Assembly: GCA_017857595.1 (NCBI GenBank)
Contig: JAFMCU010000004.1
Span: 1-64,000 of the forward strand
DNA length: 64,000 bases
From: Thermoprotei archaeon
GTDB lineage: Archaea > Thermoproteota > Thermoprotei > Gearchaeales > Gearchaeaceae
Direction: 5' to 3'
Every line of letters begins with the position of its first letter. The first letter of the stretch is position 1. The translations under genes were made by a program, and so were the position numbers. Below the pieces are notes generated by a model that worked only from the letters and a program-made list of their open reading frames with translations, ran no database searches and was not told the origin of the DNA. Below are positions 3,369 to 64,000 of the stretch, piece after piece.

Positions 3369-3470
3369 TGCAGGGGGTGGGATTTGAACCCACGAAGGCC
3401 TACGCCATAGGGTCTCTTATTATGCATAATCCTAAGCCCTACCCCTTTAACCAAGCTAGGGAACCCCTGC
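3369..3470 (-). tRNA. tRNA-Leu(UAG) with a 17-nt intron at 37/38 (intron 3414..3430)
   Basis: Acceptor GCAGGGG/CCCCUGC, T-arm GUGGGUUCAAAUCCCAC. Anticodon region UAGGG-CUUAGG|AUUAUGCAUAAUAAGAG|A-CCCUA folds into a canonical bulge-helix-bulge. Confidence 0.93.
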
Positions 3471-60120: not shown

Positions 60121-60511
60121 AAGTGTTGACTTTTATTGCGGTTATATTACCGTTAAGAAAGTAAGCATAGTAAATTTCTTGGTCGACAAATTCAGGAGGA
60201 ATTTTTCCTCCTTGATATATTATTTTGCTTAATATAGTTCCATTTACAACTTGAATAATGTATATTTGAACATAATAATAAATTCCTTTATCTAATTTTC
60301 CATCACATAAATTAGAAACATTGACGACTGAGTAAGATTTAGCGTTCATATATACAAAAGCGATTTCTTCAGCACAGCTTTGTAAATATGATAAACTTAC
60401 ATTTGCCTGTTGATAATTAATTAGATAAACTACGCTGTTTATCGACCAAATAGAAACAATTATTATTATGAAGGAACAAATTATTGCCTCAATTGAGCCC
60501 TCCATTATCAA
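60107..60511 (-). CDS. Prepilin-like protein
   Basis: MEGSIEAIICSFIIIIVSIWSINSVVYLINY N-terminal helix; overlaps neighbouring ORFs. Confidence 0.58.
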   Translation of the reverse strand: MIMEGSIEAIICSFIIIIVSIWSINSVVYLINYQQANVSLSYLQSCAEEIAFVYMNAKSYSVVNVSNLCDGKLDKGIYYYVQIYIIQVVNGTILSKIIYQGGKIPPEFVDQEIYYAYFLNGNITAIKVNTYGEV

Positions 60512-62379
60512 AAGCTTCCAAATTTAATAATTTGAAAGATTTGCAAAACTAAAAATGCAATTAACAAACATATAATTGAGTTTTTTATTCCTTCAATATG
60601 GTTATATCCTAATGATCCTCCTAAATATCCTAATAATATAGAGTTTAGATATGAAGAAAAAAGCGCGATTTCATAAAGCCAATTAGGTGTTGCATTAATG
60701 ATAAAAAAAGAAGGACCTGTATATATTAAGTTGACTGTGTTAAATGCACTAACAAGATTATTCATAATTGATATAGAAATAGATATAGAAGCAGCTAACA
60801 AAGCTGTAACGAAATAACTAGAGTATTTAAAAAATCTTGTCTTAAGTTTATAGATTTTTCTGCTATTATCAAGCTTATCAACAAAATCTGATAATTCAGA
60901 ATAAATTATTGGATCTGCACCTGCTTGGTCTGTATATTCAATAATGCTAAATATTTGCTTAAACATTAACGGTAATCTTTCTTTAGTTAGCGCATTTGTG
61001 ATACTGGATCCAAATCTTTTTAGGAATACAAGTTTTCTTAAAAATAATTTTATGTATTCATCAAATCTGTCGATTATTTTTTCCAAAGCTTGTAACGGAC
61101 TATTCCCTTTCTTGATTTCTTCCGAGAGTTCTCTTATCATCTTTGGAATCGTATCTATTAGTTTTTCATGGTTTCGATATCTGTAGAAATTAAAATAGAA
61201 AAGACTAAATAATGTTATGATTGAAGGTATTAATAACATATAGCTTGGGTCGATGTTATAAAATCTGTATAGAAAAAATAGTATTGCTAAACTTGTGAAT
61301 AGCACCAAAAGTCCGTTCTTATAATCCATACTAGTAGATACTACAAGAAAAGATGGTATGCTACTTCTAAGAATGAATAAGAAAGCAGCGAAAAATAGAA
61401 TAGGAAGCACAATAAAAATAATAAATGCCATAAAAATGTTCATCCCAATAAAAATAGCAGATACTATCATTGTTATAGGCACCAGTATAAATACCAATAG
61501 TTGAGAAGCAAGAAGAACATTAAACTTTTCAAGTAAGTTTTCTATTTTCCTTTCCAATAGTTTAAAGCTATCTATCATTTTGCTCTTCATTATTTTATGC
61601 AATTCGATAGCTCCTGTAGAAGAAACTGTTATGAATAATTCTTTTAATTCAGGATGATATGCAATATGTGAATACTTTGAGATAGTTTCAATCGGGTTTA
61701 ACATATAAAGTATTCTTATTTTTTCTAGCTGCATGTAGATTTTTTTGAAGTAAGAAAAAAATGGATTTCTGCTTATAATTTCTATAATTATGTAGGGATT
61801 TATTCCAATAGTTAAAAAAGAAGTAAAAACTACGTAGAGCATTTGAATTTCTTTATCAAGGCCAGAATTTAAGTATGACTTCAATATAAAAGGTTTCAAA
61901 ATGATGTAAATTAAGTAGGCATTACTTATAGTTAGAGCAAAAATTAACACAGTAAAATTTATTCCTGAATGGATTTGCAAAAATAGCAGGACTAAATTAA
62001 AAATGAGACTCCTAGTAAAAGCATAAAATATCAACTTAACATAACTTACAGGATCTTCTTTTATTGAAGTGTAAAATAATATTTCTTTATATATTTCAAT
62101 CATTTTTTGTAGAAAATTTGTTTTTTGATTTAAAATATCATATAATTTTCTTTCTATTTTGCTAATATTAATGAATATTATAATTAATAAAAATATTGAT
62201 ACAATTTCAAATAATGATATATTCAAAAATATCATTTCCATTATATCTATAGTCAAAGTAATTATAAATGGTATATTTATTATTAATAATTTAATATCAG
62301 TAAAATATGTGTAATTTAAATTCTTAAATAAATTATTATGATTATCAATTAATAGTAAAAATTTTTTACTACTACTCAT
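60508..62379 (-). CDS. Type IV pilus/type II secretion membrane platform protein (TadC/GspF-like)
   Basis: Multi-TM; T2SSF-like domain TIPKMIRELSEEIKKGNSPLQALEKII...FKQIFSIIEYTDQAGAD; adjacent to the secretion ATPase. Confidence 0.85.
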   Translation of the reverse strand: MSSSKKFLLLIDNHNNLFKNLNYTYFTDIKLLIINIPFIITLTIDIMEMIFLNISLFEIVSIFLLIIIFINISKIERKLYDILNQKTNFLQKMIEIYKEILFYTSIKEDPVSYVKLIFYAFTRSLIFNLVLLFLQIHSGINFTVLIFALTISNAYLIYIILKPFILKSYLNSGLDKEIQMLYVVFTSFLTIGINPYIIIEIISRNPFFSYFKKIYMQLEKIRILYMLNPIETISKYSHIAYHPELKELFITVSSTGAIELHKIMKSKMIDSFKLLERKIENLLEKFNVLLASQLLVFILVPITMIVSAIFIGMNIFMAFIIFIVLPILFFAAFLFILRSSIPSFLVVSTSMDYKNGLLVLFTSLAILFFLYRFYNIDPSYMLLIPSIITLFSLFYFNFYRYRNHEKLIDTIPKMIRELSEEIKKGNSPLQALEKIIDRFDEYIKLFLRKLVFLKRFGSSITNALTKERLPLMFKQIFSIIEYTDQAGADPIIYSELSDFVDKLDNSRKIYKLKTRFFKYSSYFVTALLAASISISISIMNNLVSAFNTVNLIYTGPSFFIINATPNWLYEIALFSSYLNSILLGYLGGSLGYNHIEGIKNSIICLLIAFLVLQIFQIIKFGSF

Positions 62380-62380
62380 A

Positions 62381-64000
62381 TTAATCCAATAATACCTCTT
62401 CTTCAGACTTAATTTCTTCCAAGTTAAACTTTAATGGATCTTTATAAAATTCCCAAATTAGTTTGCTTATGTTCCTATAATCCATAAAATAATCGTTTTT
62501 CTTTGCTTCCTCTTTAATTTTATTAATAAATCTCAATTTTATTTCTATATCATTATACATCTTTTCTTCATCCCACCCTTTTTCCTCCATGATTTGCACA
62601 ATTGTAGGAGTTTTCACAACTTCCTCTATAGAAAGTGTTTTAAATCTATCTTCATCACTTTTGTATGAGGATATTCTTATTAATTTTGGCTCATTATTTG
62701 AAGTTACGTAATTCAGGTCGTATATTCCAGTAACTCTTCTATAGTATATTGGTATTCTTTTTGTGTTTGTATCTTGTTTGTACTGACTTATTCGATGCAG
62801 CTCAACAATAGAATGTAAGGAGCTAAGACTTCCAATCTCCACTTTTATAGGATCACTAATTAATCTTTCAATAGCTGAAATTGGAGTTTCTGCATGCAAG
62901 CTAGTTATTCCTCCATGACCAGTCATAATAGCTTGTGCCCATACTCTTCCTTCTTCACCTCTAACTTCTCCAACAATTAAATAATCTCCACTCATTCTTA
63001 GCGCATGTTTAACAAGAGTAAACATATCTATACTACCTTTTTCGTCTAAAGTGATGCTTTCTCTTGTTACAAGAGGGATCCAATAAGGATGAGCAAGTCT
63101 AAGTTCAGGAGTATTATGACATACAAAACCATTAGCTATAAACTTTCCATTATTTAAAACAGTTAAATCGTATACTCTATCCTTTTTATATGTTTTTTCT
63201 ATATAGACAATTTTTTCTTCATTTATATCGAATTTAGTTTCTTTCCTTTTTTCTTTTTCCAGTACATATTGTTCAGTTTGGATACTATTTATGTGGACAT
63301 GATAATATAGTCCATCGTTTATCTTGACAATTTGGGTTTTAATTTTTATTCCTAACAGAAGGGACATAAAAATAACGTATTGATAGATGTTTAAATTCTC
63401 TTTATTAAATACTAAAGTATTAGAACCTTCTTTTATATGATTATTTATTATTTTGAAATAGTAATTTATTAGTTCATCTATATTTCTAAAAATAGAATAG
63501 TAATTGTTTCTTTCAAAATTTAAATTATATTGAGAAATACAATTATCAATAATAAAATGATTGCGTAAATTTATTACTTCTTTAATATCATTTTTTATTG
63601 AATATATATTATTACCTATTAAACTTGAATGATTAACATAAATCAAATTGTAATTTTCACCTAAATAAAGATTGTCTATAACTAAGATTTTATCATTTAA
63701 TCTTAAATCTGAACATTTTACGGGTTTAATTTTTTTGTTTTCATCATAGGAAAAAAGAGAATGATCACCTGTAACTTCTATTTGTTTACCTGTTTCAGTA
63801 ATAATTTTAACGAATTCTTTTGCTACAAAATGCCTATAGAGATATTGGCATCTTGCCCAAGTCACTCTATATTGTTCGTCTATAGTTAATACATATAAAT
63901 TGGGAATAGATAAAAATCCGTCTTCTTCTATATTATAAATATCAAATAATTGATCTACGAAATTACCTATTTTATCTATTATAATTATATCATCAAGCTT
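62381..64000 (-). CDS. Type II/IV secretion (TadA/GspE-like) ATPase interrupted by an intein; partial, runs off window end
   Basis: C-extein TPELRLAHPYWIPLVTRES...DYLIVGEVRGEEGR...GHGGITSLHAETP. Frame stays open from 63865 to 64000, so the track start at 63865 is artefactual. Confidence 0.9.
   Translation of the reverse strand, partial: KLDDIIIIDKIGNFVDQLFDIYNIEEDGFLSIPNLYVLTIDEQYRVTWARCQYLYRHFVAKEFVKIITETGKQIEVTGDHSLFSYDENKKIKPVKCSDLRLNDKILVIDNLYLGENYNLIYVNHSSLIGNNIYSIKNDIKEVINLRNHFIIDNCISQYNLNFERNNYYSIFRNIDELINYYFKIINNHIKEGSNTLVFNKENLNIYQYVIFMSLLLGIKIKTQIVKINDGLYYHVHINSIQTEQYVLEKEKRKETKFDINEEKIVYIEKTYKKDRVYDLTVLNNGKFIANGFVCHNTPELRLAHPYWIPLVTRESITLDEKGSIDMFTLVKHALRMSGDYLIVGEVRGEEGRVWAQAIMTGHGGITSLHAETPISAIERLISDPIKVEIGSLSSLHSIVELHRISQYKQDTNTKRIPIYYRRVTGIYDLNYVTSNNEPKLIRISSYKSDEDRFKTLSIEEVVKTPTIVQIMEEKGWDEEKMYNDIEIKLRFINKIKEEAKKNDYFMDYRNISKLIWEFYKDPLKFNLEEIKSEEEVLLD
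63113..64000 (-). mobile_element. Intein (Hint splicing domain), C-terminal part; N-terminal Cys/Ser lies beyond the window
   Basis: Block B-like VTGDHSLF (TxxH); C-terminal blocks RVYDLTVLNNGKFIANGFVCHN|T with terminal His-Asn and Thr+1. Confidence 0.9.

Follow-up and report, generated by a model that had tools for sequence, protein, structure and literature searches.

A single long reading frame on the minus strand runs off the end of the window, the 64-kb stretch of DNA that we analyzed, which comprises bases 1-64000 of contig C38 (104,426 bases) in a genome of 1.47 Mb on 60 contigs. The initial annotation had taken this frame to continue beyond the edge, and it does: on C38 it holds 848 open codons without a stop, and the complete ORF encodes 841 aa (C38:64906 to 62381, minus strand), with an alternative ATG five codons inside. 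The predicted precursor comprises an N-extein of 292 aa, an intein of 306 aa and a C-extein of 243 aa. The whole intein spans C38:63113-64030 (minus strand), of which 296 aa lie within the window, and its sequence begins SVSKDSIVAF and ends NGFVCHN. The features of the locus, in window coordinates, are as follows.

63113..64000, minus strand: predicted intein, residues 11-306; residues 1-10, SVSKDSIVAF, fall immediately past the window edge
63665..64000, minus strand: Hint splicing domain, N-terminal half (residues 11-122 in the window; PF14890, TIGR01445)
63752..63775, minus strand: block B, VTGDHSLF (TxxH: T87, H90); the AAA261-N23 allele has VTADHSLF
63227..63664, minus strand: middle region, residues 123-268, the place of a homing endonuclease; alleles 26% identical, with many gaps
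63113..63226, minus strand: Hint domain, C-terminal half (residues 269-306; TIGR01443, PF14890); 63% identical between alleles
63158-63178, minus strand: block F, RVYDLTV
63113-63133, minus strand: block G, NGFVCHN
63110..63112, minus strand: Thr+1, first residue of the C-extein; T also in the intein-less orthologue G002
62381..63112, minus strand: C-extein of a FlaI/GspE-like ATPase, C-terminus and stop (PF00437; PDB 2oap, 4ii7)
63104-63106, minus strand: Asp-box glutamate within the C-extein
60508..62379, minus strand: membrane protein adjoining the ATPase, with weak similarity to UpsF (46.9 bits; cut-off 400)

Elsewhere in the window, Rfam places a tRNA of about 102 bases at 3369-3470 (minus strand) that is missing from the ARAGORN list and may contain an intron.

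Re-reading the sequence recovered the peptides quoted in the initial annotation at their coordinates on the minus strand. That annotation had also proposed that the intein was masked by a false ORF start, correctly so, since the listed GTG start at 63865 falls inside the intein. A gene called from this internal GTG looks like an ATPase that has been cut short and begins unusually, a warning for the annotation of such loci. Upstream of the window edge, the N-extein had been expected to end in IED or VED; it ends ...NSTVITVED, and Ser1 of the intein (SVSKDS, block A) follows directly. The C-terminal junction reads CHN/TPELRLAHPYW, the slash here and below marking the splice junction.

Profile searches place the segment among inteins. 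The Pfam family Intein_splicing (PF14890) matched at 66-68 bits (cut-off 35.8, E about 1e-18), and the NCBIfam models for the N-terminal (TIGR01445, 29.0 bits, cut-off 24.5) and C-terminal (TIGR01443, 25.0 bits, cut-off 15.6) intein regions were likewise exceeded. Because these scores lie above curated cut-offs, we dismiss a chance match as the source of the intein signal. The Hint domain carries blocks A, B, F and G, and the segment is inserted in frame and scarlessly absent from homologues. Its residues are those of a class 1 intein, with Ser1, T87-x-x-H90, YDLTV, His305-Asn306 and Thr+1, and the nucleophiles are intact in both of the alleles described below. An AlphaFold model built from two sequences had a mean pLDDT of 47.7, too low for use.

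Searching the whole genome with PF14890 returned this locus (66.2 bits, E 1.5e-18) and one other, in the replication factor C small subunit (RfcS; G000:C46:11280-12881, minus strand; L002:760-2364), with junctions VLELNA/SVHPD...LLHN/SDERGID. The RfcS intein occurs at the same site in G003, a genome of the same order, and not in G002; pieces of it lie on two contigs of G001 (C57 and C13). We considered a split RfcS intein in G001 (C13, L067:1579-2733, plus strand; C57:4-504) and rejected it: its N-terminal half stops at the edge of contig C57 and shares sequence with the C-terminal part, and a piece is repeated on C13, a picture that fits an artefact of assembly or single-cell amplification.

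The host of the intein under study is a member of the secretion ATPase superfamily. Once joined, the exteins align across the junction in one stretch to 2oap (Archaeoglobus-type GspE, E 7e-61) and to FlaI (4ii7, E 2.7e-51), which reads TIED-TPEL at the insertion site. The T2SSE domain (PF00437) matched at 72.5 bits, and joining yields Walker A, the Asp box, Walker B and the His box, the C-extein holding the Walker B region DYLIVGEV and the His box TGHGG. The NCBIfam FlaI model NF058587 gave 232 bits against a cut-off of 550, a score taken on the unspliced protein, in which the intein splits the match. On these sequence grounds we assign the host to the pilus/archaellum-type motor ATPases and leave the exact pilus type at this level. 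The ATPase and the membrane protein are adjacent in three genomes; in L006 and L053 the gene after the ATPase likewise codes for a membrane protein of about this size.

The site had been described as lying between Walker A and Walker B, which is broadly right, but it can be placed more exactly inside the Asp box (TVED/TPE), three residues ahead of the Mg2+-stabilizing glutamate of CpaF. That residue, E312, aligns with Glu+3 of the C-extein, the Glu of TPE (counted along the alignment from K287), and E357 in the Asp box of PilB has the same part (PMC5424180). Since the intein splits the Asp box before this glutamate, the unspliced precursor is probably inactive as an ATPase. An intein-free copy of this ATPase is absent from the genome (about 90% complete), which holds only paralogues of 36% and 22% identity. 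That pilus assembly would depend on splicing, as suggested initially, is a sound inference.

To ask whether the segment belongs to the ATPase, the initial annotation had called for comparison with intein-less orthologues. The closest of these, on contig C5 of G002 (same family, another genus; 54% identity over residues 28-524), is uninterrupted at the site: ITVEDTPEIRLAHPYW. A longer reading of the same orthologue is also without a break: RATIITVEDTPEIRLAHPYWIPL. The sequence thus passes straight through VED-T. The same motif is uninterrupted in the ATPases of 28 of 28 intein-free relatives (26 by pattern, two by eye), a count that represents 30 ATPase loci minus two intein hosts. With the N-extein and block A in place upstream, both results that the initial annotation had named as refuting thus came out the opposite way. 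The second host is in G001 (SCGC AAA261-N23, same genus), which carries an allelic intein of 312 aa at the identical site (SVCGDAYIL...NFICHN/TPELRLAH), about 41% identical to the one under study. An insertion domain native to this ATPase subfamily and never excised would likewise keep the frame and occur in each of the two genomes of the genus. Such a domain would, however, have to sit in a conserved active-site motif, begin and end in intein blocks whose nucleophiles are all intact in either allele, and leave no scar where it is missing, in the same-family orthologue as in every other relative examined, and we regard it as extremely unlikely. We conclude that the segment is almost certainly, judged from its sequence, a class 1 cis-splicing S1/T+1 intein in a motor ATPase of the archaeal type IV pilus/archaellum family.

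The two alleles match one another best (E 8e-45); in 61 genomes, the matches that come after have E values of 3e-8 or weaker. Because they are by far closest to each other, their relationship fits descent from one insertion in an ancestor of the genus, and the empty site in G002 fits loss or later gain alike. We also searched 400 genomes of the phylum, a sample that did not include G001, for the DNA pattern of the C-terminal junction, HN-T-x-E-(hydrophobic)-x-(hydrophobic)-x-H; it occurred in the genome under study and at five chance-like places in four genomes, and a reversed control pattern gave three matches. A two-intein profile scan of viral contigs found no relative.

Conservation between the alleles is uneven along the intein. 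The N-terminal Hint half is 52% identical, the middle 26% and the C-terminal Hint half 63%, and the exteins are 78% (N-extein, counted from residue 41) and 68% (C-extein) identical. Nei-Gojobori dN/dS values were 0.39/1.34, 0.93/1.71 and 0.20/2.81 for the N-terminal Hint half, the middle and the C-terminal Hint half (about 0.29, 0.55 and 0.07), a rough measure because it comes from the one known allele pair, with intein synonymous sites near saturation. For the exteins, dS was saturated and dN was 0.14 and 0.23. These values fit selection on splicing and relaxed constraint on the middle region. The segment might instead be a dead remnant that has lost splicing, in a dispensable ATPase on its way to becoming a pseudogene; the endonuclease region is degenerate, and the genome has two distant ATPase paralogues. 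Yet both species retain the splicing residues, conservation extends to the Hint halves, where dN/dS is low, and to the exteins, where dN is low, the 848 codons are free of stops, and the ATPase has kept its membrane-protein neighbor in three genomes. Such a remnant is thus highly improbable.

Does the intein also still home? The initial annotation had seen no clear LAGLIDADG motif, and our searches bear this out: neither allele has such a motif, which in a homing intein carries the catalytic Asp, and no Pfam endonuclease family matched. About 146 residues do remain between the Hint halves, enough to entertain a divergent but active endonuclease, and to the eye MSLLLGIKIKTQIVK looks like the end of a LAGLIDADG repeat, as does LLLGIKIKTQIVK. 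Against this stand the missing motif and domain match, and a middle region only 26% identical between alleles, with large gaps; continued homing is very unlikely. A profile of the middle region had no significant match among the other inteins gathered. The earlier proposal of a decayed endonuclease remnant is plausible from the divergence of the middle, but homology to LAGLIDADG enzymes is not statistically demonstrable. We infer that the endonuclease is gone or decayed and that homing has been lost. The homing-cycle model predicts such a degenerate middle once an intein is fixed (PMC8966425), and the allele pair together with an empty-site relative offers a natural experiment, on a small scale, in how the endonuclease decays from then on. 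A ribonucleotide reductase intein in G004 (C79, L065:244-3936, minus strand; TNP/CVSGDT...LNHN/CGEE) has the LAGLIDADG-like motifs ALGWLVGDG and FLRGLFTADG and is for this reason probably still of the homing type.

In the mechanism we propose, the gene would yield a single precursor of about 841 aa, in which the split Asp box would preclude normal ATP hydrolysis. Ser1 would start an N-O acyl shift, the N-extein would be transferred to Thr+1, and Asn306 would cyclize as the exteins are joined, giving an ATPase of ~535 aa with TVED-TPE restored. With its endonuclease lost or decayed, the intein would be inherited with the host gene and kept only by the need to splice.

Inteins are common at ATP-binding and catalytic sites (PMC5874633, PMC7765530), and this one is a genuine but ordinary kind of element, the newness of its site being unproven. 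A literature search, with most subscription journals and InBase outside its reach, yielded no earlier description of a pilus-type ATPase that carries an intein at its Asp box. We put forward only as an unlikely scenario that this is the first known Asp-box intein of a pilus/archaellum-type motor ATPase and that its splicing, conditional on temperature or redox state, acts as a post-translational switch of pilus assembly. The locus would add an archaeal pilus-type motor ATPase, and the Mg2+-coordinating Asp-box site, to the catalytic positions occupied by inteins.

Comparison with known inteins places this one in a familiar setting. Among solved structures, PDB sequence comparison gave as best relatives the methanogen TFIIB inteins 5o9i (E 1.6e-12) and 5o9j, which share the Hint N-terminal region (residues 15-120 here) and block F/G; they occupy another host and another site, and in the 306 aa of the present intein the Hint halves are separated by a long, degenerate middle. 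The well-studied intein of M. jannaschii KlbA (MJ0781, PDB 2jmz) resides in an archaeal protein akin to secretion ATPases. The likeness to KlbA drawn in the initial annotation holds for this broad host family, but not for the type of intein. The KlbA intein is class 2, with Ala1 and a penultimate Ser (PMC7765530), whereas ours has Ser1, His-Asn and Thr+1 in place of the Ala1 and Cys+1 of that class, in a FlaI/GspE-like host. A different secretion-type ATPase in G005, a genome of the same taxonomic class (C33, L054:3342-5936, minus strand), carries a P-loop intein, GEMGSGK/SVSGDELS...VHN/TSLANS. It shares the host superfamily and the residues S1...HN/T+1 with the Asp-box intein but sits at GSGK/T (Walker A) of another paralogue and is not allelic to it, so that one enzyme family hosts inteins in two different motifs of its active site. 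A parallel is the P. horikoshii VMA intein, whose degenerated endonuclease lacks the LAGLIDADG aspartates (PMC8966425). Both inteins interrupt a motif of an ATPase active site, the VMA intein at the VMA-b site in a P-loop and this one in the Asp box of its pilus-type host.
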